This document shows positions 2,137-22,222 of a stretch of DNA of 64,000 nucleotides, one piece after another. The translations under genes and the position numbers were made by a program. The notes below the pieces were generated by a model that saw nothing but the letters and a program-made list of their open reading frames with translations, had not been told where the DNA came from and did not search any database. This DNA comes from Parabacteroides faecis (GTDB taxonomy: Bacteria; Bacteroidota; Bacteroidia; Bacteroidales; Tannerellaceae). How positions within the stretch are numbered: the first letter of the stretch is position 1; each line of letters opens with the position of its first letter. The stretch spans positions 558,001 to 622,000 of the forward strand of contig NZ_BMPB01000001.1 in assembly GCF_014647375.1 (NCBI RefSeq), in the 5' to 3' direction.

Positions 2137-3399
2137 CTATAAAGCATTATAACGGGAAGGCGATACACCGAACTGATTCGTAAAATGCTTGCGGAATGTA
2201 TTGATATCGTTATAACCGACCATTTCAGCCACCTCCTGAACAGAATATTTCTTCTGCATGATCAGGGAAGCGGCCTTGCTGATACGGATACTGCGAATCA
2301 CTTCGATAATCGACAAGTTACTCTGCTGCTTCATCTTCCGGTATAAAGTAGGCTGGCTGAGGTTCAACAGGCCCGCCAGGCTTTTGGCACTGAAATCCGG
2401 GTTTGTCAGATTGGTTTCGACAATGCAGATCACCTGCTGCATGAAAAGGCTGGCCTGCTCTTCTTCCTCCGGCTTTTCTACCGTATGTTTCAGCATCAGA
2501 GTTTTCGTATAGATGCGTTTCAACTGTTCACGCATACGGATTAGGTTCTCTGCTTTGGCCTTGAGCACTTCGGGATTGAAAGGCTTCATGATATAGTCGT
2601 CCACACCGATCCGGGTACTTTTCAACAAATCCTCCTCCTCTGCTTTGGCCGTCAGCATGATGATCGGGATATGAGCCGTCTGCAACTCCTGCCTGATCTC
2701 CTGACAACAGGTAAAGCCGTCTTTGACCGGCATCATTATATCCGAAATGATCAGGTCAGGGATCTCTTCACTGGCGATCCGCATGCCCTCTTCACCGTCT
2801 CGAGCTTCCAGGACACGGTATTTTTTCTCGAATAGAGTATGAATATAATGTCTTATCTCATCGTTATCTTCAATGACCAGCAATTTCTTACCTGATTCGA
2901 GGGATCTCTCTTCACGAACCTTTTCCGGGGCAATGAATACTTCCTCCTTCCGGTCATCACGGGTATCCTCAACCTGTTGATATACATCTTCTTTAAAATG
3001 CTCACGTCCTAACGGAAGGTAAAGGATAAACTCGGAACCTTTACCGGGAACACTGTTCAGCAAGACTTTCCCATGATGGAGATCCATCGTGTTTTTAACG
3101 ATACGCAAGCCGATACCCACCTTGGTAGAAAATGAGGGATCATTTTCGCCCGTTATAAAAGATTCAAAAATGCGTCCCTGCAAATTTTCAGCGATACCGG
3201 GTCCATTATCCGTAACAGATAATAAACAGAACATTTTCCCGTCCACCTCCTTCTCGGCGATCGCAACCCTTATCTTTCCGCCTTTCGGGGTATATTTGAG
3301 CGCATTCGAAAGGAGGTTCTTCAAAGCTGATTCTATTTTCGGGGCATCAATCCAGAGATAAAGAGATTGAATGCCAAAGTCCAAGATGTACTCATGCAA
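2137..3399 (-). CDS. Hybrid two-component regulator (HTCS), C-terminal part: HATPase - receiver - AraC-type HTH
   Basis: This is the output end of a hybrid histidine kinase/response regulator. It has a HATPase domain (about residues 20-130: N-box NLLSNALKYTP, G-box TDNGPGIAE and GIGLRIVKNT). A receiver domain follows (about 172-290, phospho-acceptor Asp220 in SDIMMPVKDG, Lys in YIMKPF). An AraC-family DNA-binding domain closes it (about 325-420, ending ITNQFGVSPSRYNAL-like). It lacks the periplasmic sensor and the HisKA dimerisation helix, which are on the opposite strand just upstream. The ATG at 3399 lies inside the inverted segment, so this start exists only in the orientation seen here. 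After inversion the frame would continue into HisKA without a stop. Whether a free 420-residue protein is made is unknown. Domain calls are firm, independent function doubtful. Confidence 0.85.
   Translation of the reverse strand: MHEYILDFGIQSLYLWIDAPKIESALKNLLSNALKYTPKGGKIRVAIAEKEVDGKMFCLLSVTDNGPGIAENLQGRIFESFITGENDPSFSTKVGIGLRIVKNTMDLHHGKVLLNSVPGKGSEFILYLPLGREHFKEDVYQQVEDTRDDRKEEVFIAPEKVREERSLESGKKLLVIEDNDEIRHYIHTLFEKKYRVLEARDGEEGMRIASEEIPDLIISDIMMPVKDGFTCCQEIRQELQTAHIPIIMLTAKAEEEDLLKSTRIGVDDYIMKPFNPEVLKAKAENLIRMREQLKRIYTKTLMLKHTVEKPEEEEQASLFMQQVICIVETNLTNPDFSAKSLAGLLNLSQPTLYRKMKQQSNLSIIEVIRSIRISKAASLIMQKKYSVQEVAEMVGYNDINTFRKHFTNQFGVSPSRYNAL
3378..3393. repeat. Left inverted repeat of the HTCS inversion (IRL)
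   Basis: AGTCCAAGATGTACTC matches the reverse complement of the right copy at 14 of 16 positions, with an identical 7-bp core CAAGATG. The arms around the centre AGA are themselves nearly dyad (AGTCCA / TGTACT). Confidence 0.85.
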
Positions 3400-5721
3400 A
3401 ACGATACGACTTTTTGGATGATATCCACTGATGTACTTTCGCTTATTTCAATCGCTTATCAGATGGATAAAATGGGGAATATAGACAAAGTGGACTTAAA
3501 AGTAGAAATGGAGTTTACTGGTCTGGCCGGGAACAATACAAACTATATGGCTATGTGTCAATCCCCTGACGGAATCATTTATATTGCGACCGATTGGGGA
3601 AATATAGTCACTTTCAATCCAAAAACACGTCAAATGACAAGCCAAGGCGATTTACCGAGAGTCAATAAAATTCACGTTCACCGCCTTCTTTATTCCGACG
3701 GTTCTGTCTGGATTGGAACCTGGGCCAACGGAGCGATCTGTTACAATCCGAAAACAGGTGTCTATACTCAATATAGCTATAAACCGGAGGATACGAAAAA
3801 AACTCTTTCCCATGGAGATATTTACCAGATGGTTTCTTTGGGAGACGGACGGTATTTAGCTGCTACATGGAATGGTTACACAGTTTTTATTCCTGATAAA
3901 GAAGAACCTACCCGCTATACAACAGAAGTCTATAACAACACTGCATCTCAACTTCATCGTAACTTGGAGACCCGAATGATCTCCGCTTATTATGATACGG
4001 AAGGTATCATCTGGATTGGAACACAAGGCGGAGGAGTGTATGCCTCCGATTTGCGAAAGCAATTTTATCAACGCTTTCATCAGGAAACACATAATGAAAT
4101 ATGTGAAATGGCGACGGATGAAAATGAATATATCTGGCTAGCCACTTTCCATAAGGGTATTTTGAGAAGTACGGAACCTTTCAATCCTCAAAGCCGTTTG
4201 GAGTTTGAATCGGTCCCTGCCGGCTCGAGCAATACTGTTTTATGTGTGCTCAACGATAAAAAAGGAAACTTGTGGTTCGGAAACGGTCAGTCCGAACTAA
4301 TTCAGTATAATTCCGAAAATAAAACCTTTACCGTTTATCCTGTCCGTATTAAAGACAAACCTGAGTGGTCTGGTTCCATCTGGTCTTTATTGATTGACAA
4401 TCAAAATCGTTTATGGCTGGGAACATCCAACGGGTTATTGTTGTTTGATCGCCAGACAAAAGATTTTGTCTATTACCCTGTCGGTTCCGGAACCATACGG
4501 GCAATGGCAGAAGTTCCCGATAAATACTTCTTGTTAGGATTGTCATACGGCTTAGTAAAGTGTTCTTTGAATGGTCAACCTATTCGATCGGACTATGAAA
4601 AAACAGCTGATATTCCAGTCAGGGACATACGTTCCCTTTATGCTGCTTCAGACGGAAAGCTCTATATAGGTTATTCCGACGGATTTGGGGTAATGGATAT
4701 TCAATCTGATTCAATCGAGAATTTTTACACAACCCATAATGGGTTAAGCAGTAATTATATAGGTTGTATTTGTGAAGATGCGGAAGGACGTATTTGGCTA
4801 GGTTCCGCTTCGAGTGTTTGTAACTACAGCAGACATCAGAAATTGTTCTATAATTACTATATATCCGGTAATAACCGCTCAGTCATCTTTTATAAGGATT
4901 TTCTGTTTTGGGGGAATAATAAAAACATAACCTATTTCCTCCCGAATGAAGCAATGAACAACCACTTTATTCCCGGTAAAGTAGTAATAACTCAATTGGA
5001 AGTAGATAATAAAACAGTTGAAATCGGGCAAAAGATAAATAATCAAGTCATTCTGAAACAAGGTATTCCTTATACTCACGGATTAACATTAAAGGCTGCT
5101 AATAATAGTTTTTCATTGATGTTCAGTAATCTGACCTACTCGGATGACCTGCAAAAATATAATTACCGGTTAAGTCCGGCTCAATCGAACTGGTTGACAA
5201 TCAATGAAGGTGAAAAGGTTTCGTATGCAAACTTACCTCAAGGGAAATATGTTTTTGAAGTACAAAGTATTATGGCAGACGGTTCTAGCGGCTATCTGAC
5301 ATCCATGGATATCAACATCCTGCCTCATTGGTATGAAACAATTTGGTTCCGTCTTCTAATCATCATCACAATCGGTTTTATTATATATTATCTGATTCGC
5401 CGTGTAAAAAAGGAGCAGGCACGTCTGAGGCATGAAGAACGGTTAAAACACGAATTGTTTGTTGCCAATCTGGAACGTGAGAAAGAGAAGCAAATCAACC
5501 GGGAACGCAGCAATTTCTTTACGAATGTCTCTCATGAACTTCGCACACCTCTGACACTGATTCTTTCTCCTTTACAGGAGTTATTGCAGACGGAACGCCT
5601 TTCACAAATTCTATATGATAAGTTATCATTGGTTTACAATAATGCAACCTCATTATCTACCCTGGTAAATCAATTACTCTATGTACAAAAAATAGAAGCC
5701 GGAATGGTGCAATTAAAACTG

Positions 5722-6171
5722 TCAGAAGTTGATATATATGTGCTGGTTAAGAATGTTATCACATCTTTTAAGCATATTGCTGAGATAAAACAGACAGAGT
5801 TCATCTTGAACTCCGGTAAATTTCCCGTTTTCATTAATAGAAACAAAATGCTCCATACGGCGATCGAAACAGAAGAGTTGCCCGCTCACATTCAACCAAA
5901 GCAGATTATTTCCGGTTTCATGGATACTGGAAACTTTCATATAAAGCCCATCCGAACCGAAATTCTTTATATTTTTTCCATCATAACGGCTCAAACCATT
6001 ATCTGTGCCAAACCACATAAAACCATCCATATCTTTATGAATACACAAGACTGTATTATCGGCCAGTCCGTTTTGCATGGTGAGCACCCTGATATCCTTT
6101 TCAAAAAAGGCATAACCGGAAAAACTATAAAAAATAGAGAATAGTATAGCGACAATAAATTTCCTCATCAT
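5722..6171 (-). CDS. HTCS N-terminal part: signal peptide and first propeller blade, truncated by the inversion
   Basis: The first about 122 residues are genuine HTCS sequence. There is a signal peptide (MMRKFIVAILFSIFYSFSGYAFF), then the standard opening of a Bacteroidetes sensor propeller (LTMQNGLADNTVLCIHKDMDGFMWFGTDNGLSRYDG). After GVQD the frame crosses into the inverted segment and continues for only about 26 out-of-context residues (ELCLFYLSN...) to a stop. The true gene would continue after inversion. The start codon is fixed by the signal peptide and lies divergent to susC, the usual place for a HTCS controlling that operon. In this orientation the cell should make at most a 149-residue secreted fragment with no signalling ability. 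Confidence 0.85.
   Translation of the reverse strand: MMRKFIVAILFSIFYSFSGYAFFEKDIRVLTMQNGLADNTVLCIHKDMDGFMWFGTDNGLSRYDGKNIKNFGSDGLYMKVSSIHETGNNLLWLNVSGQLFCFDRRMEHFVSINENGKFTGVQDELCLFYLSNMLKRCDNILNQHIYINF
5797..5812. repeat. Right inverted repeat of the HTCS inversion (IRR)
   Basis: GAGTTCATCTTGAACT is the inverted partner of the site at 3378-3393 (14/16). Its arms AGTTCA and TGAACT form a perfect 6-bp dyad around TCT, the architecture expected of a recombinase binding site. Confidence 0.85.
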
Positions 6172-6202: not shown

Positions 6203-6210
6203 CAAACATA
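6203..6210 (-). promoter_or_regulatory. Possible -7 box of the HTCS gene
   Basis: The minus strand reads TATGTTTG, fitting TAnnTTTG, 32 bp before the HTCS start. No clear -33 TTG is at the right distance. The intergenic stretch 6172-6460 should also hold the HTCS binding site for susC, but I could not identify a direct repeat for it. Confidence 0.35.
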
Positions 6211-6460: not shown

Positions 6461-9400
6461 ATGAAGAAAAGAGTCACTTTTTTAATTGTGCTGCTAATGG
6501 TTAGTATATTTCATATATACGCGCAACAGCAAAACATTAGCGGTACTGTCATTGACAAGAACCTGAATGAACCCGTTATCGGAGCTTCCATTCAAATAAA
6601 AGGTACAACAAACGGGACTATTACCGATTTGGACGGAAAATTCTCTATCAATGCTTCGAAAGATGATATCCTGGTGATCTCCTACATAGGATACACTACA
6701 CAAGAGATCAAACTTACCGGACAATCCAGTCTAAAAATAGAATTGAATGAAGACACTCAGGCACTGGACGAAGTAGTAGTAGTAGGGTTCGGTACCCAAA
6801 AGAAAGTTAATCTGACCGGAGCTGTAGCGACTGTCGATAAGAAGGTATTAGCATCCAGGCCGGTAACTTCCGTTTCACAGTCTTTACAAGGGGCAGTTCC
6901 CGGATTAAACTTATCCACCGCCGACCTGGGAGGACAATTGGGTCAGAACATGAACGTTAATATTCGTGGTACAGGAACGATCGGTAAAGGTTCCAAAGGC
7001 GAGCCACTTATCCTGATCGACGGTATGGAAGGAAACATGAACAACCTGAATCCGGAAGATGTTGAAAACATCTCTGTATTGAAAGATGCCTCCTCTTCCT
7101 CTATCTACGGTTCGCGGGCAGCGTTCGGCGTAATTATGATAACAACCAAAAAAGGTAAAGCCGGGAAAATGCAAATAAACTACAACAATAACGTCCGTTA
7201 TTCCGGTCCGACCAATCTCCCTAATCAACTCGATTCATACCGTTTCGCAAATTTCTTCAATGAAGCTTCTATCAATCAGGGAGGTAGTGTCATTTTTGAC
7301 GAAGAGACCATCGGTCGCATACAAAAATACATGGCCGGAGAATTAGCGGAAACGACTATTGCCAACGGTAACAACTGGCATTTTCATGAAAAAGCTAATG
7401 ATAATGTAAACTGGTGGAAAAAACACTTCCAGTGGGCATGGTCGAACGAACATAATATCAGTCTGAGCGGCGGTACGGAAAAGATACAATACTACGCATC
7501 CGGAAGTTATCTGAACCAAAATGGCAACTTGCGTTACGGAGAAGATAATTATAAACGTTACAATGCAACAGCTAAGGTTAATACACAAATAAACAAATAT
7601 GTAGATTTCAATATTAACACAAAGTTCGTACGTTTTGACCTCGACAACCCTATTTATTTGGAAGAAGGCGGACTTCTTTACCACGATATTGCCCGTATGT
7701 GGCCCATGATGCCTTTTAAAGACCCGAACGGTTATTATATGAGAAACGGAAAACTCAACCAGTTGGTAGACGGCGGACGTTCCAAGACCCATAACGATAA
7801 TATTTATATGCAGGGACAGCTCGTAGTCCACCCGCTTAAAGGATGGAATATTTACGCAGAAGCCGGCATGAGAATTATCAATCAGAACAAGCAAACGAAC
7901 TTGAATCCGATCTATGAACACGATGTAAACGGGAATCCGCAGGCATTAGCTTTTAGCGGAAGTTATTCTCCGGGAGCTTCGTTCGCACGCTCTGCTTACC
8001 TGAACAGTAATTTCTATACGACAAGCGTTTATACCGATTATACTTTACAGCTGAAAGATCATTACTTTAAGGCATTGATTGGTATGAATACCGAAGAATA
8101 TGTCTATCGCGAATTAAGCGCCCAACGTCCCGATGTGATCAGTAGCCTTGTTCCGGAAATCAGTGCGTCTACCGGGGAGGATAAAATCAACAGTTCTAAA
8201 TATAATGACTGGTCGACTGCCGGATTCTTCGGACGTATCAACTATTCATATAAGGACCGGTATATGGTAGAAATGAACGTTCGTTACGATGGTTCTTCCC
8301 GTTTCCTCAGAGACCAGCGCTGGAACGTGTTCCCTTCTTTCTCTTTAGGATGGAATGTAGCACGCGAATCGTTCTTCGAACCGATAAGTAACATCATCAA
8401 TACGTTGAAACCGCGTGTTTCATGGGGTATGTTAGGAAATCAGAATACTGACTCATACTATCCGTTCTATCTGACACAAAGCGTAACGGCTAATGGCGGC
8501 AACTGGTTAATGAATGGCGGCAAACCGACAACGGCGGGAGTTCCGGGAATGGTCAGCAGCACACTTACCTGGGAAAAAATCTACAATACTAATATAGGTA
8601 TCGACCTCGGCATGCTGGACAACCGCCTGAATGCAACTGCCGAGTATTTTATCCGCAGAACCAAAGACATGGTCGGACCGGCAGCCGAAGTGGGTGCCAT
8701 ATTAGGGACCTCTCTTCCGAACACGAACAATGCCGAACTGAAAAATAAAGGATGGGAAATACAACTGAACTGGAGAGACCAGATAGGAAAAGTGAATTAC
8801 AATGCCGGATTTAATCTTTCAGACTATCGCGCTAAAGTTATTTCATACCCCAATGCTTCTAAAGCTCTTTGGGATGCAGACGGTAATACGCTTTACTACG
8901 ACGGAATGACAATCGGAGAAATCTGGGGATACGAGACGGAAGGTATCGCTAAATCCGATGAACAAATGACCGAATGGCTGGCCAACAATGACCAGAGTAA
9001 AATCGGTTCAGCCTGGGGAGCCGGCGACATTATGTATCGCGACCTGAACGGTGACAAAGTAGTCGACAGTGGAAACAGTACAGCTATAGATCATGGCGAC
9101 TTAAAAGTAATCGGTAACAATACGCCTCGCTTCCGTTTCGGCCTGAGCCTGGGAGCAGATTGGAAAGGTTTCGATGTACAGATGTTTTTCCAGGGAGTTA
9201 TGAAACGTGACATTTGGTTAGGCGGTCCTATGTTTTGGGGAGCTGATGGCGGAGAGTGGCAATCGGTTGGCTTTAGTGAACACCTTGACTATTTCCGTCC
9301 GGAGAACACAACTTCCGTATTCGGAGCAAATCTCGATTCCTACTACCCCAAAGCTTATCTGGGTGATAAAGGAAACAAAAACAAAAAAACTCAGACACGC

Positions 9401-9646
9401 TATTTACAAAACGGAGCTTATATGCGTATGAAGAACCTGCAAATAGGATATACATTCCCCCGAGCCTGGATGAATAAAGCGAATATCCAAAAGCTCCGTA
9501 TTTATGTTAGTGCAGAAAATCTTTTCACTATCAGTGGCATAGCTGATATGTTCGATCCCGAAGCAACTGCTGCCAACGGATTCAGCAATGGTAAGACATA
9601 CCCGCTATCTAAAACTATTTCATTCGGTTTAAATATCACTCTTTAA
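6461..9646 (+). CDS. SusC-like TonB-dependent outer-membrane transporter
   Basis: This protein imports oligosaccharides across the outer membrane using TonB energy. I place the start at 6461 (MKKRVTFLIVLLMVSIF..., a clean signal peptide ending near YAQQ), not at the upstream ATG at 6377, which would precede the -7 box. Mature order: a carboxypeptidase-D-like domain (NISGTVIDKNLNEPVIGASI), the TonB-box region DEVVVVGFGTQ, the plug (SLQGAVPGLN, NIRGTGTIG, DASSSSIYG), then a long beta-barrel ending in ISFGLNITL. The length of 1061 residues is normal. susD follows 12 bp later. The divergent HTCS is the likely regulator, so expression should follow the HTCS inversion. The neighbouring fucosidase and sulfatases suggest a sulfated, fucose-bearing ligand, which is inference. 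Confidence 0.95.
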   Translation: MKKRVTFLIVLLMVSIFHIYAQQQNISGTVIDKNLNEPVIGASIQIKGTTNGTITDLDGKFSINASKDDILVISYIGYTTQEIKLTGQSSLKIELNEDTQALDEVVVVGFGTQKKVNLTGAVATVDKKVLASRPVTSVSQSLQGAVPGLNLSTADLGGQLGQNMNVNIRGTGTIGKGSKGEPLILIDGMEGNMNNLNPEDVENISVLKDASSSSIYGSRAAFGVIMITTKKGKAGKMQINYNNNVRYSGPTNLPNQLDSYRFANFFNEASINQGGSVIFDEETIGRIQKYMAGELAETTIANGNNWHFHEKANDNVNWWKKHFQWAWSNEHNISLSGGTEKIQYYASGSYLNQNGNLRYGEDNYKRYNATAKVNTQINKYVDFNINTKFVRFDLDNPIYLEEGGLLYHDIARMWPMMPFKDPNGYYMRNGKLNQLVDGGRSKTHNDNIYMQGQLVVHPLKGWNIYAEAGMRIINQNKQTNLNPIYEHDVNGNPQALAFSGSYSPGASFARSAYLNSNFYTTSVYTDYTLQLKDHYFKALIGMNTEEYVYRELSAQRPDVISSLVPEISASTGEDKINSSKYNDWSTAGFFGRINYSYKDRYMVEMNVRYDGSSRFLRDQRWNVFPSFSLGWNVARESFFEPISNIINTLKPRVSWGMLGNQNTDSYYPFYLTQSVTANGGNWLMNGGKPTTAGVPGMVSSTLTWEKIYNTNIGIDLGMLDNRLNATAEYFIRRTKDMVGPAAEVGAILGTSLPNTNNAELKNKGWEIQLNWRDQIGKVNYNAGFNLSDYRAKVISYPNASKALWDADGNTLYYDGMTIGEIWGYETEGIAKSDEQMTEWLANNDQSKIGSAWGAGDIMYRDLNGDKVVDSGNSTAIDHGDLKVIGNNTPRFRFGLSLGADWKGFDVQMFFQGVMKRDIWLGGPMFWGADGGEWQSVGFSEHLDYFRPENTTSVFGANLDSYYPKAYLGDKGNKNKKTQTRYLQNGAYMRMKNLQIGYTFPRAWMNKANIQKLRIYVSAENLFTISGIADMFDPEATAANGFSNGKTYPLSKTISFGLNITL

Positions 9647-9658
9647 AATACAAAAACA

Positions 9659-11641
9659 ATGAAAAAAAATCTATTATACATCATAACATTGGCTGGTGCT
9701 TTATGCTCTTGTAACGATTTTCTTGACAAAGAACCGTTGGACGCTGTGCCCACCGACAAATATTTATTGACTGAAAGTGATTTGGCTGCTTATTCGGCTA
9801 ATCTGTACGATCAGCTTCCCTCCCATACACCCGGACAATATAATATGGGGGTATTCGTCACCGACAACAATAGTGACAACCAGGCCGCAAGCAATCCCAA
9901 TAGTTCATTTGTGAAGGGAGAAACCCGCGTAGCACAAAGCGGAGGTGCCTGGGATTTTGGAAAGATCCGTAATGTCAACTATTTCATCGACAAAGTACGC
10001 CCCCGGCTCGAGAATGGGGAATTAAACGGAACAGAAGCTAACAATAAACATTATTTGGGAGAAATGTATTTCTTCCGTGCATATATCTACTATACCAAAC
10101 TAGTTGCACTCGGCGACTTTCCCATATTGAAAAACTGGATTACAGAAGATTATGAGACTGTCAGGGAAGCAAGCAAAAGACGTCCGCGCAATGAAGTGGC
10201 ACGTTTCATCCTGCAAGACCTGGACTCGGCCTATTATTACATGAAAGAAACTCCGCCCATGACCAACCGGCTGACTAAAGATTGTGCCGCCCTTTTGAAA
10301 AGCCGTGTAGCCTTATTTGAAGGTACATGGGAAAAATACCACAAAGGGACAGCACGCGTGCCGGGTGGTCCGGGATGGCCGGGAGCGAACAAAGATTATC
10401 TGAAAGATTTTTCAATCGACATCGATTCTGAAATAAGATTCTTCCTGACAGAAGCCAAAGAAGCTGCTCAAATAGTTGCCGATAAATATTCGTTATCCAG
10501 CGATTATCCGTCTCTATTCAACAGCCAATCATTAAGTAGCACTTCTGAGGTATTATTATGGAGAGCCTATGATGCAAGTCTTACTCCTGCTGTCAACCAT
10601 TTTGTAGTGGGTTATATACAACGTAACGGAGGTGGAAATACCGGATGGACACGCAGTATGATGCAATCTTACCTGATGGAAAACGGATTACCGATCTATG
10701 CGAATAACTCCGGTTATCAAGGTGATAAGACCTATGAATCCGTAGCAGCCGATCGTGACCCACGTTTAGGATACAATACCATTTTACCCGGTGAATTATT
10801 ATCAGAAGGAGGAAGCAATATTGAATATCTTGTGAACGGATATGGTTATTATTATCGTGCACCTATCGTGCTGGGTCAGAATGAGAACAAATGCCCTACC
10901 GGTTATTCGGTAAAAAAAGGTCTGACAACAGATGCTGCACAAGGTCCGACGCTGCCTTCTACCACAGCTTGTGTAGTATTCCGGGCTGCTGAAGCATATC
11001 TGAATTATATGGAAGCTGATTATGAATTGAGCAACTCGTTAGATGCCAACAGTGGAAAATATTGGAGAGCTCTTCGTGCACGTGCCAATATGGATACCGA
11101 CTATCAGAAAACAATAAATGCAACGGATTTAAATAAAGAATTGGATTTTGCCCGTTATTCCGGCTCTGAATTAGTATCAACGACTCTCTACAACATCCGT
11201 CGTGAACGCCGCATCGAGTTTGCTGCCGAAGGACTTCGTCTGAATGACCTGAAACGTTGGCGTGCATTGGATATGATGCAGGGATATCACGTAGAAGGTT
11301 TCGATTTATGGAGTGAAAATTATGCACGTTATACAACGCCAACTCCCACTCCGGCAGCAGATGTTACTCTTTCGGTCGTTAATTTGATAGAATCAGGAAA
11401 TACAAATGCAAATGTATCTGCAAAATCAGAAAGCCAGTATCTTCGTCCTTACCGTATCAATACGAATAATATTGCTTACAATGGTTACAATTGGAACCAG
11501 AACAAATATCTGAACCCGATTGCCTTCGACCATTTCCGACTGACAACAGAAACAGAGGGTTCCACTGATTATGCTTCCTCTACAATTTATCAGAATCCGG
11601 GATGGAAGATAGAAACCAGCAGTCTTCCTGAAGGCGATTAA
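9659..11641 (+). CDS. SusD/RagB-family surface glycan-binding lipoprotein
   Basis: This is the lid and ligand-binding partner of the SusC barrel, exposed on the cell surface. The N-terminus is a lipoprotein signal with Cys at the lipobox (LAGALCSCNDFLDKEP), followed by acidic residues. SusD features include YFFRAYIYY-type TPR helices near residues 140-150 and the C-terminal signature NIRRERRIEFAAEGLRLNDLKRWRA (about residues 510-540). At 660 residues it is slightly long for the family. It is spaced 12 bp from susC and clearly co-transcribed, with a strong hairpin terminator 20 bp after its stop. The downstream enzymes may therefore be partly uncoupled from the susCD transcript. Confidence 0.94.
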   Translation: MKKNLLYIITLAGALCSCNDFLDKEPLDAVPTDKYLLTESDLAAYSANLYDQLPSHTPGQYNMGVFVTDNNSDNQAASNPNSSFVKGETRVAQSGGAWDFGKIRNVNYFIDKVRPRLENGELNGTEANNKHYLGEMYFFRAYIYYTKLVALGDFPILKNWITEDYETVREASKRRPRNEVARFILQDLDSAYYYMKETPPMTNRLTKDCAALLKSRVALFEGTWEKYHKGTARVPGGPGWPGANKDYLKDFSIDIDSEIRFFLTEAKEAAQIVADKYSLSSDYPSLFNSQSLSSTSEVLLWRAYDASLTPAVNHFVVGYIQRNGGGNTGWTRSMMQSYLMENGLPIYANNSGYQGDKTYESVAADRDPRLGYNTILPGELLSEGGSNIEYLVNGYGYYYRAPIVLGQNENKCPTGYSVKKGLTTDAAQGPTLPSTTACVVFRAAEAYLNYMEADYELSNSLDANSGKYWRALRARANMDTDYQKTINATDLNKELDFARYSGSELVSTTLYNIRRERRIEFAAEGLRLNDLKRWRALDMMQGYHVEGFDLWSENYARYTTPTPTPAADVTLSVVNLIESGNTNANVSAKSESQYLRPYRINTNNIAYNGYNWNQNKYLNPIAFDHFRLTTETEGSTDYASSTIYQNPGWKIETSSLPEGD

Positions 11642-11744: not shown

Positions 11745-13196
11745 ATGAAAAAAACTATCACTCACACATTATTGCTATTTCCTATATTAGCAATGGGAAT
11801 ACAAGCACAAGAGAAACAGTCTTCTCCAAACCTGATCTTTATTATGGCTGATCAATGGCGCGGAGATGCTTTAGGATGCCTGGGTAAAGAGGCTGTAAAA
11901 ACACCTCATCTGGATCAATTGGCATCAGAAGGTGTTAACTTTACCAATGCAATCAGCAGTTATCCGGTATCTTCCCCGGCACGTGGCATGCTGATGACGG
12001 GAATGTATCCTGTACATAGTAAAGTTACCGGAAATTGTAATTCGGCAACAGCCCCTTATGGAGTCGAACTGCCTACCTCGGCACGCTGCTGGTCGGACGT
12101 CCTGAAAGATCAGGGATATGAATTGGGTTACATCGGCAAATGGCATCTGGATGCTCCTTACCAACCTTATATCGATACGAATAACAACAAAGGGAAAATA
12201 GCCTGGAACGAATGGTGCCCTAAAAACCGTCGTCACGGTTTCAGTCACTGGATCGCCTACGGGACATACGATTATCATCTGAAGCCTATGTATTGGGATA
12301 CGGATGCCAGCCGCGAGGAATTCTATTTCGTAGACCAATGGGGGCCGGAATATGAAGCCGACCGGGCCATCGACTATATCGCCAATCAAGATAATAAACT
12401 CCGCGACGGGGATAAACCCTTCGCCCTGGTCGTATCCATGAACCCGCCTCACACCGGGTATGACCTGGTTCCCGACAAATATAAAGAAGTATACCGGAAT
12501 GTAGATGTCGAATCACTATGCAACTCTCCCATCATCGCACCGAAAGGAACGGAATACGGGGATTTCTACCGGAAGAGCGTACTGGATTATTATGCTTGCA
12601 TGACCGGCGTTGACGACCAGGTCGGCCGCATTATCCGTGCACTAAAAGAGCGGGGGCTTTTCGAGAATACCCTCGTGGTATTCACCTCCGATCATGGTGA
12701 TAGTATGGGGATGCACGATCATATCGGAAAGAATATTTACTACGAAGAAGCCATGCGCGTCCCGATGATACTCACCTGGCCGGAGAAGATCGCACCGCGC
12801 CACGACTCGACACTGATGATCGGTTTTGCCGATCTCTATCCTTCACTATTGTCATTAATGGGCTTCAGGGAAGAGATACCTGCCGAAGTGGAGACGTTCG
12901 ATCTGTCTGCATCTATCCTTTCTCCCGATAAGGGCCAGGAGGTAATACAGCCTTATTATCAAGTCTCCTCTGAAAATTTAACGACTGGCTACAGAGGTTT
13001 CCGGACAAAAAAATATACATTTGCAGTACACGCTACAAACGGCCAGACTGACGAGTGGATACTGTTCGACCGCGAGCAAGACCCGTACCAACTAAATAAT
13101 ATTGCATCCGATCAGCCGGAATTGATTAAACAGTTTGCCAGCCGGTTAAAAGACTGGTTGAAGAAGACAAACGATCCTTTTACAAATAGCTTATAA
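11745..13196 (+). CDS. Sulfatase, serine-type (S1 family), secreted
   Basis: It removes sulfate esters from glycans in the periplasm or at the surface. The signal peptide is residues 1-21 (ending IQAQ). The N-terminal metal site is NLIFIMADQWRGD, and the maturation motif S76-S-P-A-R80 followed by GMLMTG marks the serine that becomes formylglycine. Because this is Ser and not Cys, activity needs an anaerobic sulfatase-maturating radical SAM enzyme, which is not in the window. Later metal and substrate residues appear in VVFTSDHGDSMGMHDHIGKN. Its 483 residues are typical. It is 10 bp from the fucosidase gene, so they form one operon. The exact sulfate position it attacks cannot be read from sequence alone. 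Confidence 0.92.
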   Translation: MKKTITHTLLLFPILAMGIQAQEKQSSPNLIFIMADQWRGDALGCLGKEAVKTPHLDQLASEGVNFTNAISSYPVSSPARGMLMTGMYPVHSKVTGNCNSATAPYGVELPTSARCWSDVLKDQGYELGYIGKWHLDAPYQPYIDTNNNKGKIAWNEWCPKNRRHGFSHWIAYGTYDYHLKPMYWDTDASREEFYFVDQWGPEYEADRAIDYIANQDNKLRDGDKPFALVVSMNPPHTGYDLVPDKYKEVYRNVDVESLCNSPIIAPKGTEYGDFYRKSVLDYYACMTGVDDQVGRIIRALKERGLFENTLVVFTSDHGDSMGMHDHIGKNIYYEEAMRVPMILTWPEKIAPRHDSTLMIGFADLYPSLLSLMGFREEIPAEVETFDLSASILSPDKGQEVIQPYYQVSSENLTTGYRGFRTKKYTFAVHATNGQTDEWILFDREQDPYQLNNIASDQPELIKQFASRLKDWLKKTNDPFTNSL

Positions 13197-13206
13197 ACAT
13201 AAACAC

Positions 13207-14592
13207 ATGAATACACGTTTTTATCTGGTAATCTTATTGATAGCAAGTTTTCTCCCGGCAATGGGACAACAAACGGAGATACCTCGCCCGGCACCTCATC
13301 AGTTGAAGTGGCACGAATCGGAAATGGGCGTCGTCTTCCATTATGACCTCCATGTCTTCGACGGCATTAAATACGGTCAGGGTAATAACCGTGTCCAGCC
13401 GATAGAGGATTATAATATCTTCAACCCGACCCAGCTGAATACCGATCAATGGGTACAGGCCGCCAAAGCAGCGGGAGCCAAGTTCGCCGTACTAACGGCA
13501 ACACACGAGACAGGCTTTGCCATTTACCAGAGCGATGTCAATCCGTATTGCCTGAAAGCGTTGAAATGGCGTGACGGCAAAGGAGATATCATCCGAGACT
13601 TCGTCAATTCATGTAGAAAATACGATATAATGCCCGGCATTTATGTCGGCATCCGATGGAATTCACTTTTTGGTGTTCATAATTTCAAGGTACAGGGGGA
13701 AGGAGAGTTTGCTGCTAACCGTCAACAATGGTATAAACATTTCTGCGAGCGCATGGTGGAAGAACTCTGCAGCCGCTACGGTGATTTATTTATGATCTGG
13801 TTTGACGGTGGCGCAGACGATCCGAAAGGCGACGGGCCGGATGTATTACCCATCGTCACCAAGTACCAGCCTGAATGCCTTTTCTATCATAACGTAGACC
13901 GGGCGGACTTCCGTTGGGGCGGTTCCGAGTCGGGTACGGTCGGTTACCCCTGCTGGTCCTCTTTCCCCTACCCTTACTCACACAGTAACAACACGGAAGG
14001 AAGCCGTAACCATAACGATCTACTGAAGCATGGTGACCAGGATGGTAAATACTGGGTCCCGGCTATGGCAGACACTCCGCTGCGTGGCATGAACGGGCGG
14101 CATGAATGGTTCTGGGAGCCGGACGACGAGAATACCATCTATCCGGTAGACAGCCTGATGAATATGTATTATAAGTCAGTCGGAAGGAATGCCACATTGA
14201 TCGTCGGACTGACTCCCGATACGACAGGACTGCTCCCTGCCGGCGATGTGCAACGACTGAAAGAATGGGGTGACGAGATCAACCGCCGTTTCTCCTCTCC
14301 CATTGCCTCTGCATCGGGACAAAAGAAAAGCCTGACACTGAAACTGGATAAACCACAAGCAGTCAACCATTGCATTATCCAGGAGAATATCGCTAATGGA
14401 GAACGTATCCGCCGGTATAAAGTGGAAGCCAAAGTAAACGGTAAATGGCAAACCGTCTGCGAGGGCGAGTCGGTCGGACATAAACGTATCGAACAATTCC
14501 CGGCAGTCGAAGCATCGGCTCTGCGCCTGACGGTCTCTCAATCGGTGGCACAACCGGATATACGAAACTTCAGTGTCTATAACGTTGAATAA
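13207..14592 (+). CDS. GH29 alpha-L-fucosidase, secreted
   Basis: It hydrolyses terminal alpha-L-fucose from oligosaccharides. The signal peptide is residues 1-20 (LPAMGQQ). The GH29 barrel follows, with family landmarks WHESEMGVVFHYD (about 35-47), AKFAVLTATHETGF (91-104) and the nucleophile Asp200 in MIWFDGG. After about residue 370 comes a beta-sandwich resembling an F5/8 type C carbohydrate-binding module (ending RLTVSQSVAQPDIRNFSVYNVE). The general acid is not conserved enough across GH29 for me to name it. It sits between two sulfatase genes with 10- and 22-bp gaps, which argues for stepwise removal of sulfate and fucose from one glycan, such as sulfated Lewis-type or mucin caps. Linkage preference is not inferable. 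Confidence 0.92.
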   Translation: MNTRFYLVILLIASFLPAMGQQTEIPRPAPHQLKWHESEMGVVFHYDLHVFDGIKYGQGNNRVQPIEDYNIFNPTQLNTDQWVQAAKAAGAKFAVLTATHETGFAIYQSDVNPYCLKALKWRDGKGDIIRDFVNSCRKYDIMPGIYVGIRWNSLFGVHNFKVQGEGEFAANRQQWYKHFCERMVEELCSRYGDLFMIWFDGGADDPKGDGPDVLPIVTKYQPECLFYHNVDRADFRWGGSESGTVGYPCWSSFPYPYSHSNNTEGSRNHNDLLKHGDQDGKYWVPAMADTPLRGMNGRHEWFWEPDDENTIYPVDSLMNMYYKSVGRNATLIVGLTPDTTGLLPAGDVQRLKEWGDEINRRFSSPIASASGQKKSLTLKLDKPQAVNHCIIQENIANGERIRRYKVEAKVNGKWQTVCEGESVGHKRIEQFPAVEASALRLTVSQSVAQPDIRNFSVYNVE

Positions 14593-14614: not shown

Positions 14615-16156
14615 ATGAACAAAAGAATATTAGTATCACTCATAGCAATACCCTTACTGGGAACGACAAGACAAGCCGAAGCGGCAACCCCGCAGGACCG
14701 GCCGAATATTATTCTCTTTTTAGTAGATGATATGGGTTGGCAGGATACTTCCCTCCCCTTCTGGAAGGAAAAAACCCATTACAACGAAGTATATGAAACG
14801 CCCAATATGGAACGTCTCGCCCATCAGGGAATGATGTTCACCCAGGCGTATGCTTCCAGTATCAGTTCGCCGAGCCGTTGCAGCCTCTACACCGGTATGA
14901 ACGCCGGACGTCACCGGGTAACGAACTGGACCTATCCGAAGAATGCCTCCACCGACCGTAAAAGCGATGTACTGGAACTACCGGACTGGAATGTGAACGG
15001 TATCTGCGAAGTTCCCGGCATCGAACATACCTACCAGGTCACTTCTATGGCCCAAATACTGAAAGATAACGGCTATCATACCATCCACTGCGGAAAGGCA
15101 CATTGGGGAGCTCTCGATACACCGGGAGAGAACCCGTATCATTTTGGCTTTGAAGTGAATATTGCAGGACATGCCGGTGGCGGACTGGCAAGCTATCTGG
15201 GAGAAGCCAATTTCGGTAACCGGACAGACGGAAAACCGAGTCCCTGGTTCGCCGTTCCCGGATTGGATGAGTATTGGGGAAAAGATATTTTCATCACGGA
15301 AGCCTTAACCCAGAAAGCCATGAAAGCCTTGGATAAGGCACAGCAATACGACCAACCGTTCTTCCTGTATATGTCGCATTACGCCATCCACGTCCCGATC
15401 GACAAGGATATGCGTTTCTACCAGAAGTATATCGACAAGGGACTGGGAGAGAAAGAGGCTGCTTATGCCGCCCTGATCGAGGGAATGGACAAGAGCCTGG
15501 GAGATATCATGGATTACCTGGAGAAGAATAACCTGGCAGATAATACCATCATCCTTTTCATGTCGGATAACGGCGGACTTGCTGCCGAACCGGAATGGCG
15601 TGACGGTGTTCCCCATACCCAGAACTCTCCGCTGAACAGCGGTAAAGGTTCTGCCTATGAAGGTGGTGTCCGCGAACCGATGATCGTCAGCTGGCCGGGA
15701 AAAGTACAGCCGCAAACCAAGACAGATAAATACCTCATCATCGAAGATTTCTTCCCTACCATCCTTGAAATGGCAGGCATAAAGAAATACAAAACGATCC
15801 AGCCTGTCGACGGTGTCAGCTTCATGCCGTTACTGACCAACACCGGCGATCCTTCCAGGGGACGCAGCCTCTACTGGAACTTCCCGAATCTTTGGGGAAA
15901 CACCGGTCCGGGTATCGGAGCGACCTGCACGATCCGCCAGGGGGACTGGAAACTGATCTATTATTACGAGACCGGAAAGAAGGAATTGTTCAATATTCCC
16001 GACGATATAGGAGAAAAGAACGACCTGTCCGCCACTCATCCCAAACTGGTAAAGAAGCTATCCAAAGACCTCGGGAAACAGTTACGGAAAATGGAAGCAC
16101 AGCGCCCATCGTTCAAAGCGACAGGAAAGCCTTGTCCGTGGCCGGATGAGATATAA
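14615..16156 (+). CDS. Sulfatase, serine-type (S1 family), secreted
   Basis: This is the second glycan sulfatase of the locus, 513 residues, with an N-terminal signal (ending QAEAA). The metal site begins NIILFLVDDMGWQD. The maturation motif is S84-S-P-S-R88 followed by CSLYTG, so it too is a serine-type enzyme depending on anSME. Further conserved parts include HCGKAHWG and MSDNGGLAAEP. It resembles the arylsulfatase A-like S1 subgroup more than the first sulfatase does (long insertion around residues 115-145, and GKGSAYEGGVREPMIVSWPGK). The two enzymes therefore probably act on different sulfate positions. It is the last gene of the three-gene operon; no clear terminator precedes the small gene downstream. 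Confidence 0.92.
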   Translation: MNKRILVSLIAIPLLGTTRQAEAATPQDRPNIILFLVDDMGWQDTSLPFWKEKTHYNEVYETPNMERLAHQGMMFTQAYASSISSPSRCSLYTGMNAGRHRVTNWTYPKNASTDRKSDVLELPDWNVNGICEVPGIEHTYQVTSMAQILKDNGYHTIHCGKAHWGALDTPGENPYHFGFEVNIAGHAGGGLASYLGEANFGNRTDGKPSPWFAVPGLDEYWGKDIFITEALTQKAMKALDKAQQYDQPFFLYMSHYAIHVPIDKDMRFYQKYIDKGLGEKEAAYAALIEGMDKSLGDIMDYLEKNNLADNTIILFMSDNGGLAAEPEWRDGVPHTQNSPLNSGKGSAYEGGVREPMIVSWPGKVQPQTKTDKYLIIEDFFPTILEMAGIKKYKTIQPVDGVSFMPLLTNTGDPSRGRSLYWNFPNLWGNTGPGIGATCTIRQGDWKLIYYYETGKKELFNIPDDIGEKNDLSATHPKLVKKLSKDLGKQLRKMEAQRPSFKATGKPCPWPDEI

Positions 16157-17395: not shown

Positions 17396-17487
17396 ATCAC
17401 TATTATCTTATACCGCTTAGCACTAGCATTCCATACTGTTCTTCACCAGCATCTTACACTGCTCAGCACTGGTATCCTGCTATCGGC
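17396..17487. repeat. Degenerate 23-bp tandem repeat, four units
   Basis: Units begin at 17396, 17419, 17442 and 17465. Units 2-4 share the pattern of CAC(T/C)-(A/G)G-(C/T)AT near the start and a CTG-containing end. The last unit overlaps the stop codon of the RND-ABC fusion gene (17480). The array fills nearly all of the gap between two operon genes. Confidence 0.6.
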
Positions 17488-20400
17488 TTCCCCCCTCCAT
17501 ATTTTTCAACAGGCAGAGATAAGCATCTTCCAGGTTCGGTTCCACCTGCACCGCTCCTTCATAAGGAGAATCGACAGAGAGATAACGGACCTGTATCGTA
17601 TCGCCATCCTGTATATGATGGACCACCATCGCTTTATCCAGTACCTGCTCGAAAGAATCCCGGTCGATATGGAACTGCCAGACTTTACCGACTGCCATAT
17701 CCACCATATCCGTCGGATCACCGAAATATTTCAGTTCACCTTTATTGATAACAACCACCTGGCTGCAGGAGCTGGATATGTCTTCAATGATATGGGTCGA
17801 GAAGATCACAATGCGATCCTTACTCAATTCTACCAGCAAATTACGGAAACGGATACGTTCACGCGGATCGAGCCCGGCAGTAGGTTCATCCACCACCAGG
17901 ATACGGGGCAGATGGAGCAGGATCAGAGCAATCCCGATACGTTGCTTCATACCGCCGGAGAAAGAACCGATCTTATCATCTTTCCGTTCATACATATGGA
18001 CGGCTTTCAACACATATTCCAGACGTTCATTCCGCTGCTCGTTATCGGTCAATCCTTTCAGGATAGCCTGGTAATCGAGGAATTCCCAGGACGACATATT
18101 CTCGTACGTACCGAATTCCTGCGGCAGGAAACCGATCAGGCTCTGCAATTCCTCCCGGTAGACACGGGTATCCAGTCCGTTGATCCATATACTGCCGTAA
18201 CTCTGCTCCAAAATACCGCAGACAATACGCATCAGCGTGGATTTACCGGCCCCATTAGGTCCCAACAGACCGAACATACCCGTACGGATCTCGAAAGAAA
18301 CACCCCGCAACGCCTTGAACGGCTTTCGTTGTTTTCCTATCAACGGAATACTTTTCACCATACGGAACCAGGAACGGCGCAAACCGGCAAGCCGTCCTTT
18401 TATACGTTCGATATTGATCTCCCGCTCATACAGATACTGGGAAGAGATATAAACTGCAATACAGAACGCCCACAAAAGTCCGACAACGGAAATCAGCCCC
18501 GTATTATCCATCTTCCGGAACAGGATAAACAGAATGACGGGAGGGATACTCCAGAAGATCGCACGGTTTATATATTTCACCCACTTTTTATCTCCGAAAC
18601 GGAAGAACAAATATTGCCGTACTTTCCGCCACAGGTAAAGCAGGGTTGCATAGATGGCAAATGATAACAGGAAGATCCATAACTTACTATGAATGAAGAA
18701 CCATGTAAAATAGATTCCGAAGAACAAGATACCGAATAGCCATATCACATTCACAAAATCTTTCAGGGAACGATATTCATTACTCAATCCCAGATGCCGG
18801 CGAATAAGCAATCCGCTGTTCCATTGGCGGCTGATACGTCCGGGCCAGTCATAGATCTTCACCAGGTTACGGACAGAGATATGTATCTCTTCTCCCGGAT
18901 CGATCACTTTCGATTTAGCCCGCCGCAAGCTGGTCTGTGCAAAATAAGTAACACCCGGAATGCCGAAGATCAGGATGACCAGGTAAATGGATTGCCACAA
19001 CATGCCGTTGCCATACAACCAGATACAGGTTACACCCAACACGAACAAAACCAGATGGAGTGCCCATACCTTACGGGATAAACTGCGATACCACTCCAAT
19101 GTATTTTCCAGCCCCATACAAACAGTAGGGATCAGGATCAATGTCAGCAAAGCGGAAAAAGTCAAACCACCGATGACCGTTATGGCGAACGGGGCACCGA
19201 TCGCACCGGCATATTCCGAATCTCCCATCGCCAACGGAAACATAGCTACGATCGTCGTGATCGAAGTAATCAGGATCGGACGGATACGCGACAGGCCTGC
19301 CGTCATTAACGCCCTGTTCCGCCTGTAACCTTGCTTACGGAGAATATTGGAATAATCGATCAGGATGATACCGTTATTCACCACCACTCCCAGCAAAATA
19401 AGGAATCCTGTCAATGTATTCGCATTCAACAGGCTGTTATTGGTCAGCAACAGAGCCAGCAAGGAGCCTATGGCAGCCAACGGGATAGAGAAAAGCAATA
19501 CAAAAGGTGTCACGAGCGATTCGAAGACAGAAGCCAGTATCATAAAGATCAGGATAAAAGCAGCCAATATCAGGAACTTGAAATCGGCAAACTCATCCTC
19601 CTCATGGAAGACCTCTACGGCAACCCCTGCAGGCAGGTTATAATTGGCAACCAGCTGGTCGATATCCGAACGGTATCCTTCCAGCAGATCTTTCGACGAT
19701 TCCACATCTTTGGAGAAGTTATAGAAAACCTCGATCTGCTTGTCCTGATTGACACGCATGATACGGGAACGTCCCCGTCCGTAATTGATAGATGCCAGAT
19801 CCTGCAGGTTATGCAGCCCCCCGTTGGCATTCTGTATCTGTACACGGCGCAGGTCGTCGACTGTCTTTTCCTTCTGGGTATTTTCGACATTTTCTTCCTC
19901 TTCTTCCCCCAGTTCCTGCTCCTCTTCGGGGATATCGTTACGGATAATAATATCATAGGTATCCTCTCCTATCTTGAAGGAAGTACCGGAAGAATATTCG
20001 GGATTGAGCGCAGCCAACCCGGATGAAATATTAGCACGGGTAATTTCATAGGAAGTCAGCAGGATCGGATCGAAATCCAGATGTATTTCCGGCTGGCGCT
20101 GATTATAAGAGACACGCGAATGGCGGATAAACTCCTGTTCATCCAGATAATAGCGGAGATCTTCCGCCACCAATTGCATTACATCGAAATCGGCTCCCTT
20201 TATCACGATCCGCTCCCGGTTATCTCCGATCCCCAGCAGACGCATAAAGTTCCCCAAACCGGCCATAGCCGATCCGCCTCCGCCGCCCGTAGCCTCGTCT
20301 ACAGAGATCTCGGCTCCCTGTATATTAGACAAAAGCCCCTGGACAGACGCTTTATATTCAGCCATCTTACTGCCTGCCTTCTCCACGAAATCGTCGGTAA

Positions 20401-22222
20401 AGGTAAGGGTAAGAACTGCATTCTTCTCATTGATACGGCTGATCAGTTCTTTCCTCCCGGGAAAGCTATCGAGCCGCTCTTCAACCACCCGTACCAGTTT
20501 ATCCGCATTATCCAACGTACTGCCTGTCTGCATGGTTACATAGACATTGATACGGTCGGTATTCACTTCCTTCATCCCCTGCACATTCAGTGTGATGGAA
20601 AGAATGAGGGTGACAAACAAAAGAATGATCGCACCGAAAATCATCACACCCGGATTACGCATACAGGTTTTCAGGGCAACCAGATAAATCTGAACAGCCC
20701 GCTGGGTGATGGATACTTTTTCGTAAAAGACTGTTTTGCTATTTGTAGTTGCCTGCCGACGAAGCAGCACATATGTTGCCATCGGAATGAAAAGCAGAGC
20801 AACAAACAGAGATATCGTCAGGGTAGAGATGATCGATACACCGATATGATGTCCGATCAGCTTGATCATAAAATTATCAGAAAAGACAAACGGCAGGAAG
20901 ACAGTGACCGTCGTCAACGTTGCCGCCACAATAGAACGCCATACCTCTTTCGTTCCTTGCGTTACAGAACGTTCGGGCGTACAACCGGCTGCCGACAGGC
21001 GATAGATATTCTCCAGCACGACAACACTGTTGTCCAGCAGCATCCCGATCGCAAGCGCCATACCGACCAGCGTCAGGCTGTTAATCGTTATACCGAACGC
21101 ATAAAAGAAATTGAATGCCGTATAGACCGAAATAGGTATGGAAAGAGCGATAAAGAATACCAGCCGCAGGTTCTTCAGGAACAACCACAGGATCAGTATG
21201 GCCAGCAACCCGCCCACCAAGGCCAGATTAATGATCTGGTTGATATTGTTCTCCATCGTTTCCGCCGTATTCTCCTGCACCACAACCTCCACGTCCAGAT
21301 AAGCCAGCTTCTCGTTCAGCCGGTCGATCGCCTCGAGGGCACGGTGAGACAAGTCGATCAGATTCGCCTGCGAATCGTTCATCAGGGCGACAGAGACGGC
21401 ATCTTTCCCGTTCACACGGCTATAGGAAGTCTCCTCTTTCAGGTCGAAGAAGACCGTAGCGACATCTTTCAACAGTACCGGACCGGGAGCGACCACGATA
21501 TTCTCCAGATCGGATACTTTCGTATAAAGTGCGTTGACATGGATAAAGTACTTGCTGTCCGGCTCATTCGCAAAACCGACAAAGGCTTTATCCTGCGTAT
21601 TTTGTGTCAGCAGGCCACTGATAGAAGACGGTGTAAGGTTCAGGGCTTTGCAGGCTTCCCGGTTCAGCCGGATCTCGATCGCTTTCTCCCGTCCGCCATA
21701 GACATTTACGGATGCCACCCCGTCGACATTCTCCAGATCGGTGCGGATCTCTTTATCCACGATATTCCTCACCCGGTCGACACCTCCCGAACCGCGTACC
21801 TGCAGAACCATAAAGTTGTTCGCCAACTGGCTGATATCCACCTTCTGCAACTGCACCGTAAAGCCTTCGGGGAAGGTAGCAGCCAGCTCGTTCACCTTCT
21901 CCTGCAATTTGAGGGAAGTGATCTTGAAGTTCACCGTATTCTTAAAATCGACCTGTATGGAAGATTGGCGGCTGTCGATGGATGATTCTATCTTATTTAC
22001 ACCGCCGATCGAACTGATCGCTCCTTCCAGCGGGATGATCACCTCCGACTCCACATACGAAGGGTCCATATCCTGCTGCGAGGATACCTGGACAAACAGG
22101 GTCGGCAGTTCCGCGTTGGGCAATAACTCTACCGGCAGTTGTTTATACGACACGTAACCGAGCATGGTCAGTGCTATAAACAACATGCAGATAGTTATTC
22201 TTCTATGTAGTAAAAAGTTCAT
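17480..22222 (-). CDS. RND efflux permease fused to an ABC-transporter ATPase
   Basis: This is a 1580-residue chimera. Residues 1-1060 are a full RND (HAE-type) pump. They carry an N-terminal TM helix, two large periplasmic loops, the TM4 motif GMALAIGMLLDNSVVVLENIYR with its proton-relay Asp, and a second TM bundle ending near FSALLTLILIPTVCMGLE. Residues about 1113-1127 (ISVRNLVKIYDWPGR) look like the first strand of an ABC ATPase. About 170 residues with several TM helices follow, then the ATPase resumes at FKALRGVSFEI (about 1299). Its motifs are complete: Walker A LLGPNGAGKST (about 1319), signature FSGGMKQR, Walker B ILVVDEPTAGLDP, H-loop STHIIED. It starts 4 bp inside the upstream RND gene (ATGA overlap). 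Both modules look intact, so it may couple two energy sources. Confidence 0.9.
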   Translation of the reverse strand: MNFLLHRRITICMLFIALTMLGYVSYKQLPVELLPNAELPTLFVQVSSQQDMDPSYVESEVIIPLEGAISSIGGVNKIESSIDSRQSSIQVDFKNTVNFKITSLKLQEKVNELAATFPEGFTVQLQKVDISQLANNFMVLQVRGSGGVDRVRNIVDKEIRTDLENVDGVASVNVYGGREKAIEIRLNREACKALNLTPSSISGLLTQNTQDKAFVGFANEPDSKYFIHVNALYTKVSDLENIVVAPGPVLLKDVATVFFDLKEETSYSRVNGKDAVSVALMNDSQANLIDLSHRALEAIDRLNEKLAYLDVEVVVQENTAETMENNINQIINLALVGGLLAILILWLFLKNLRLVFFIALSIPISVYTAFNFFYAFGITINSLTLVGMALAIGMLLDNSVVVLENIYRLSAAGCTPERSVTQGTKEVWRSIVAATLTTVTVFLPFVFSDNFMIKLIGHHIGVSIISTLTISLFVALLFIPMATYVLLRRQATTNSKTVFYEKVSITQRAVQIYLVALKTCMRNPGVMIFGAIILLFVTLILSITLNVQGMKEVNTDRINVYVTMQTGSTLDNADKLVRVVEERLDSFPGRKELISRINEKNAVLTLTFTDDFVEKAGSKMAEYKASVQGLLSNIQGAEISVDEATGGGGGSAMAGLGNFMRLLGIGDNRERIVIKGADFDVMQLVAEDLRYYLDEQEFIRHSRVSYNQRQPEIHLDFDPILLTSYEITRANISSGLAALNPEYSSGTSFKIGEDTYDIIIRNDIPEEEQELGEEEEENVENTQKEKTVDDLRRVQIQNANGGLHNLQDLASINYGRGRSRIMRVNQDKQIEVFYNFSKDVESSKDLLEGYRSDIDQLVANYNLPAGVAVEVFHEEDEFADFKFLILAAFILIFMILASVFESLVTPFVLLFSIPLAAIGSLLALLLTNNSLLNANTLTGFLILLGVVVNNGIILIDYSNILRKQGYRRNRALMTAGLSRIRPILITSITTIVAMFPLAMGDSEYAGAIGAPFAITVIGGLTFSALLTLILIPTVCMGLENTLEWYRSLSRKVWALHLVLFVLGVTCIWLYGNGMLWQSIYLVILIFGIPGVTYFAQTSLRRAKSKVIDPGEEIHISVRNLVKIYDWPGRISRQWNSGLLIRRHLGLSNEYRSLKDFVNVIWLFGILFFGIYFTWFFIHSKLWIFLLSFAIYATLLYLWRKVRQYLFFRFGDKKWVKYINRAIFWSIPPVILFILFRKMDNTGLISVVGLLWAFCIAVYISSQYLYEREINIERIKGRLAGLRRSWFRMVKSIPLIGKQRKPFKALRGVSFEIRTGMFGLLGPNGAGKSTLMRIVCGILEQSYGSIWINGLDTRVYREELQSLIGFLPQEFGTYENMSSWEFLDYQAILKGLTDNEQRNERLEYVLKAVHMYERKDDKIGSFSGGMKQRIGIALILLHLPRILVVDEPTAGLDPRERIRFRNLLVELSKDRIVIFSTHIIEDISSSCSQVVVINKGELKYFGDPTDMVDMAVGKVWQFHIDRDSFEQVLDKAMVVHHIQDGDTIQVRYLSVDSPYEGAVQVEPNLEDAYLCLLKNMEGGSR

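Follow-up and report, generated by a model that had tools for sequence, protein, structure and literature searches.

A probable two-state DNA switch inside the coding sequence of a hybrid two-component regulator of Parabacteroides faecis

The window considered here is a 64,000-nucleotide stretch of the Parabacteroides faecis genome (assembly GCF_014647375.1, contig NZ_BMPB01000001.1, positions 558,001 to 622,000), and our subject is a gene at 2137-6171 on its minus strand that encodes a hybrid two-component system (HTCS) regulator in three blocks, the outer two on the minus strand and the middle one on the plus strand. By Pfam, the N-terminal piece (5813-6171, minus) holds the start codon and the first Reg_prop repeat, and the C-terminal piece (2137-3377, minus) holds HATPase_c, Response_reg and the AraC-type HTH_18; both lie outside the 2.4-kb middle (about 3394-5796, plus), which carries the remaining sensor propeller (Reg_prop), Y_Y_Y and HisKA and is reversed here. 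This inverted middle is bounded by two 16-bp repeats within the coding sequence, namely arm C', AGTCCAAGATGTACTC (3378-3393, plus), at the HisKA/HATPase junction, and arm N, AGTTCAAGATGAACTC in its minus-strand reading (5797-5812, minus), within the first propeller, and the two arms match at 14 of 16 bases. When the segment is turned back, with any of the three crossover positions tried, the gene reads through 1344 codons with one terminal stop and no internal stop, and the restored protein carries Reg_prop, Y_Y_Y, HisKA, HATPase_c, Response_reg and AraC-type HTH in the order expected of an HTCS. In the orientation assembled here the start codon is kept, the frame is only 149 codons long, and the parts for kinase activity and DNA binding are severed from it.

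An initial annotation, made from the sequence of the window alone, had proposed just such a gene with a flipped middle and a stop-free restored frame. The domains found piece by piece and the colinear orthologs described below agree on the three blocks, and the orthologs also rule out that the pieces are separate genes. The breakpoints had been placed in the sensor propeller and between HisKA and HATPase_c, and this is borne out by the Pfam assignments, which put the former in the first propeller part, and by the domain borders in L041, an uninterrupted relative with the same domain order in one frame, where residue 895 is the last of HisKA and residue 942 the first of HATPase_c. The annotated span of the middle block, 3389-5805, did need correcting, since it is out of frame: the in-frame block runs from 3388, and the pieces join inside the repeats.

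We looked for orthologs in 39 Parabacteroides genomes, including the genome from which the window comes (G000), and found some match to the region in 26 of them; seven candidates were scored per genome, so weaker orthologs may be missing. Besides the own genome, four (G038, G022, G013 and G009) match over the HTCS blocks at E <1e-200, and the N-terminal piece shares 69-77% identity with the beginning of the HTCS in each of these. In G038, G022 and G013 the HTCS lies in one colinear frame (73.2, 73.0 and 69.3% identity over residues 2-1344), and the invertible segment has the opposite relative orientation to that in the window. Alignments to G038 and G022 switch strand at about 3357-3392 and about 5804-5818 (query offset 1299), that is, on the repeats, although the repeats were not used in making them. 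G009 retains both outer blocks, with an unbroken stretch of 3230 N (L043:5789-9018) in place of the middle. Both ends of this stretch fall exactly within a perfect inverted repeat of 19 bp, located where the window has its own two arms. Such a gap could come from a population of mixed orientation, in which contigs become ambiguous exactly there, or from masking of the stretch, and is suggestive only. The own paralog on contig C14 (48%) and the homolog in Parabacteroides sp. 52 (55%) are uninterrupted, and neither has matching repeats at the homologous places. Across all three parts of the gene, the proportions of nonsynonymous and synonymous differences (pN and pS) between window and relatives are 0.12-0.20 and 0.68-0.83, and pN among the uninterrupted relatives is 0.08-0.20. 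The changes are thus mostly synonymous in all three parts, and the gene is not visibly decaying.

Further evidence comes from the way in which the two sites have changed across species. We scanned all pairs of 16-column windows in a codon alignment of four genes (window, G013, G022 and G038), summing inverted complementarity over the species, and the site pair was the best non-overlapping inverted pair, with 58 of 64 against 48 for the next distinct pair; the raw scores between these two values belong to shifted copies of the site pair and to self-overlapping windows. Arm-to-arm identity within the four species is 14, 15, 15 and 14 of 16, and G013 has a 24-bp perfect repeat. If the arms are reassigned among the four species, the observed pairing is the best of the 24 assignments, its score of 58 being reached by 1 of 24. 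With G009 added, for which 11 bases are readable (positions 1-11 only, in its four species pairs), 2 of 120 assignments reach the observed value, G009 and G013 being identical there.

The central heptamer, at site positions 5-11, differs between species and is the same in both arms of each: CAAGATG in the window (3382-3388, plus, in arm C' and 5802-5808, minus, in arm N), CAGGATG in G013 and G009, CTGGACG in G022 and CAGGACA in G038. Indeed, no one-arm difference is seen at these positions in any of the ten species pairs: positions 6, 7, 10 and 11 vary, always in both arms, and one-arm or unmatched changes are confined to site positions 4, 12 and 16. The peptides show the same pattern, for the N site encodes V-Q-D in the window, G013 and G038 and V-L-D in G022, and the C site encodes I-L-D or V-L-D in the other species and V-Q-N in G022, so that Q and L are exchanged in G022. 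Two sequences separated by 2.4 kb, lying on opposite strands and encoding different peptides, have therefore changed together across species, and matched double changes have kept the sites as a pair over time. Inversion accounts for this, since recombination depends on the overlaps being matched and can transfer changes between the arms, and it is the only explanation that we have to offer. The matched heptamer fits the strand-exchange overlap of a tyrosine recombinase, and it fits a long-maintained switch.

We consider it very probable that these sites form a two-state DNA switch inside the HTCS coding sequence. A recombinase encoded elsewhere in the genome, most likely of the tyrosine type, would exchange strands at the two in-gene sites and flip the 2.4 kb between them, presumably in either direction. 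In the ON state, the single 1344-codon frame would give a working sensor kinase and regulator that activates the divergent susCD, sulfatase and fucosidase locus, and in the OFF state, which is the form assembled here, the stub with its effector part cut off would leave the cell without a response. The initial annotation had held both that an intragenic inversion between inverted repeats occurred and that the OFF form cannot signal; the three intact orthologs, the breakpoints on repeats and the matched arm changes sustain the former, and for the latter it stands that the start with the first propeller, the sensor with HisKA, and the HATPase-receiver-HTH part fall into separate frames, from which the OFF phenotype would follow.

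A number of observations weigh against this switch. The 14/16 repeat taken alone is within chance, with 2 such pairs at least 1 kb apart in the gene in its unbroken order, where 20 codon shuffles gave 2.1 on average (allowing up to 3 mismatches, the motif occurs 4 times in the window as a whole, with 1.72 expected), so its significance comes from the breakpoint position and the relatives; a chance repeat was nevertheless rejected, because the cross-species pairing is beyond chance although the repeat alone is not. The cross-species tests themselves are not large-sample tests, as five species are few, their pairs are not independent, and the floor of the four-species assignment test is 1 in 24. 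Within the 64-kb window there is no Phage_integrase or Resolvase match, and at nine loci that hold ten of the 23 Phage_integrase matches in the own genome, the repeats found at six (L153-L156, L158 and L093) are of other kinds. There is, in addition, one genome per species, so that opposite orientations are seen between species only, and the three relatives whose middle can be read are all in the ON form, the window alone being OFF, a distribution that a single fixed inversion would also give. Finally, with pS close to saturation, a loss of function that happened recently would leave no visible decay.

These last points are what one would expect if the gene were inverted once, is now fixed in one orientation, the only one present in the own genome, and is a pseudogene on its way out. 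We nonetheless think this quite unlikely, since the 1344 codons lack any stop or frameshift, the junctions fall on repeats, the arms stay matched in species where the gene is not inverted, and pN in the middle part is 0.18-0.20 between window and relatives, near the 0.14-0.18 among the relatives. It is even harder to believe that a contig was simply misjoined in the wrong orientation at a short repeat: the N run in the middle of the same gene in G009 lends this some colour, but a 16-bp repeat with two mismatches is below usual assembly overlaps, a false join would need reads of the opposite orientation, which is the switch itself, and the matched site evolution in other species is independent of the own assembly.

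Two further alternatives accept the flip and differ over its meaning or its agent. One is that the flip is programmed and the OFF form functional, with a role of its own for either the HATPase-receiver-HTH frame of 420 codons or the short propeller fragment at the N-terminus. The C-terminal frame (3399-2137) is indeed open and starts with TTG, but the closest TAnnTTTG on the same strand is some 1.8 kb upstream, at 5159, and no phosphorylation by its own kinase would be expected without HisKA, which makes such a role rather improbable. The other is that the enzyme is a serine invertase of the Mpi-like kind, and the four Resolvase-family matches in the genome would allow for one. Tyrosine recombinases have an overlap of 6-8 bp, and a serine invertase needs only a 2-bp matched overlap; the seven-base block matched within each of five species thus speaks for a tyrosine recombinase, and we regard the serine enzyme as unlikely.

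Where, then, might the recombinase of the proposed switch be encoded? The match closest to the window among the 23 Phage_integrase and 4 Resolvase matches of the own genome is L103 (C1:630510-631478), about 8.5 kb beyond its end, with a relative of 76% identity in G038 that lies some 37 kb from the G038 HTCS; a 26-bp repeat of another kind sits beside L103, which therefore more likely serves that segment. As for the remainder, the tyrosine recombinase genes at L153, L154, L155, L156 and L093 in the own genome each have close by a pair of inverted repeats with a spacing of about 395-420 bp; these are probably invertible promoters, and the five sets of repeats look like one family (..TTATTT..AATAAG..). 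L157 (G000 C1:360500-371000) holds tyrosine recombinases amid long inverted repeats, the longest of 45 bp, together with a frame that by eye looks HsdS-like, and is probably a specificity-subunit shufflon; L159 has a 19-bp A+T-rich repeat, and L160 shows nothing clear. NCBIfam gave ten of the own recombinase frames generic integrase or Xer names and a few weak invertase names, all below curated cut-offs, and our comparison with other genomes, which took in 40 regions from 80 matches in five genomes, is incomplete.

A search for the site AGTYCNRGAYRWACT across 124 genomes of the family returned 110 matches against 113 for a reversed control pattern, so single matches are at chance level. Of these 110, 22 make up 11 close inverted pairs (control pairs were not countable), four being the HTCS pairs of the window, G013, G022 and G038, and the seven others, with identical 15-bp arms, lying in G000 (C12), G005, G008, G018, G062, G120 and G122. 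Going by names given by eye, the pairs in G005, G018, G120 and G122 each place one arm among roughly the first 45 codons of a susC-like frame, that of G062 precedes such a frame, and that of G008 has a fimbrial-like locus nearby. The close inverted site pairs at L087, L089, L091 and L092 span the beginning of a susC-like frame, with one arm in its first codons and the other upstream, and a flip would take away the susC start and the stretch before it. The pair in the own genome (L086:9614-11294; G000 C12:219613-221293) is a 22-bp perfect inverted repeat enclosing a gene for a FecR anti-sigma factor that points away from susC, and in the five congeners that list both close together (G008, G010, G015, G019 and G034) the FecR piece has the opposite orientation relative to susC, so that the own genome has another flipped segment, flanked by sites of this kind. 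A shufflon was considered for the HTCS gene and rejected, because the draft genome contains only two exact copies of AGTNCAAGATGNACTC, as a simple switch would have.

Tsr0667 of Bacteroides fragilis reportedly acts at a motif, AGTYYYN4GDACT, which a literature search did not bring up in print and which both window arms miss at one position, having A at the third Y (by eye). It is strictly fitted by G022 alone of the five HTCS pairs and by six of the seven other close pairs. The window site would work in the manner of this type, and we do not class it as a member. Our more speculative proposal, to be held tentatively and at somewhat less than even chances, is that one trans-acting recombinase flips the regulators of several polysaccharide loci, in the own genome the HTCS sensor kinase coding sequence and the FecR segment, each pair having a private heptamer address, and that recombination between paired sites drove amino-acid replacements, so that flippability dictated part of the kinase sequence.

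The neighbourhood of the gene is that of a polysaccharide utilisation locus. Divergent from the HTCS, and its proposed target, is a susC-like TonB-dependent receptor (6461-9646, plus), followed on the same strand by a susD-like lipoprotein (9659-11641), a sulfatase (11745-13196), an alpha-L-fucosidase (Alpha_L_fucos, F5/8 type C; 13207-14592) and a second sulfatase (14615-16156). The HTCS is divergent from susCD in all four close relatives examined (G038, G022, G013 and G009), as in the window, and the first sulfatase and the fucosidase also follow in the three whose stretch extends that far; this conserved divergence makes the susCD/sulfatase/fucosidase locus the likely target, which flipping of the HTCS would then turn on and off. 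Downstream of the HTCS, an extracytoplasmic function (ECF)-type sigma factor (1295-1843, minus) adjoins it in G009, G022 and G038 as well and is not found in the 1.9 kb examined beside the G013 HTCS. A weak candidate promoter element of the HTCS gene, TATGTTTG (6203-6210, minus), follows the TAnnTTTG pattern quoted in the excerpted text of PMC4747536; no TTG lies upstream of it at the usual spacing, and TAnnTTTG is found upstream of the gene in only one of four relatives (G038). Start codon and candidate element both lie outside the invertible segment, which argues that this is not a promoter switch. When the stretch 11745-14592 is compared with L040, L041 and L042, the sulfatase and fucosidase are 80-100% identical (the L040 fucosidase being partial), against about 53-57% for SusC and SusD and about 70% for the HTCS, and this contrast may reflect a mosaic locus or fast-changing binding proteins. 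Farther along, a 1580-codon frame (17480-22222, minus) resembles, by eye, an RND-type efflux pump fused to an ABC ATPase.

What would such a switch mean? The best-known switches of this kind flip the promoters of surface genes, and here the sensor itself would be disabled, so that some cells would be blind to a glycan regardless of what the gut contains. There are practical lessons too, since paired sites that change together make it possible, without sequencing reads, to detect inversions that are maintained and to infer what overlap an unknown recombinase uses, and since switchable sensors can be mis-scored as broken genes in draft genomes. The literature that we searched contains no report of an HTCS broken up by an inversion within its coding region, and published inverton tables and supplements may include the gene. 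Inversions inside genes and at SusC/SusD loci are known, and the evolutionary evidence for the present case is good.

Intragenic inversions in gut Bacteroidales are reported by Chanin et al. 2024, as described in excerpts of PMC12548429 and PMC12632263; the former counts 372 inverton events for B. thetaiotaomicron, frequently inside coding sequences and with no tie to known recombinases, and the accessible part of Carasso et al. 2024 (PMC10939037) places such inversions in regulatory genes. The case described here shares with these the inversion within coding sequence, and it differs, as far as those excerpts go, in that 2.4 kb is inverted, sensor is parted from effector in a one-protein signalling system, and the sites are matched over five species. 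In Bacteroides fragilis, a single recombinase, Tsr0667, inverts three SusC/SusD clusters and nine other regions (PMC4747536, PMC11852207, both in part), and we liken our proposal to this use of one enzyme on many SusC/SusD regions, the HTCS sites resembling the motif given above; in the portions available, its targets are SusC/SusD shufflons and other invertible regions, whereas here it is regulator coding sequence that flips. Clostridioides difficile has a phase-variable two-component system, CmrRST, and in it the invertible element is described, in excerpts of PMC6837544 and PMC5903667, as lying upstream of the operon, unlike the present element, which is most of the sensor coding sequence. 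With the hybrid two-component systems of polysaccharide utilisation loci, such as those whose sensors were solved as 4a2l and 3v9f, the window HTCS shares its domain order and the sequence of its middle segment, which matches 4a2l at E=4.3e-54, and what sets it apart from them is the presence of recombination sites inside the gene.

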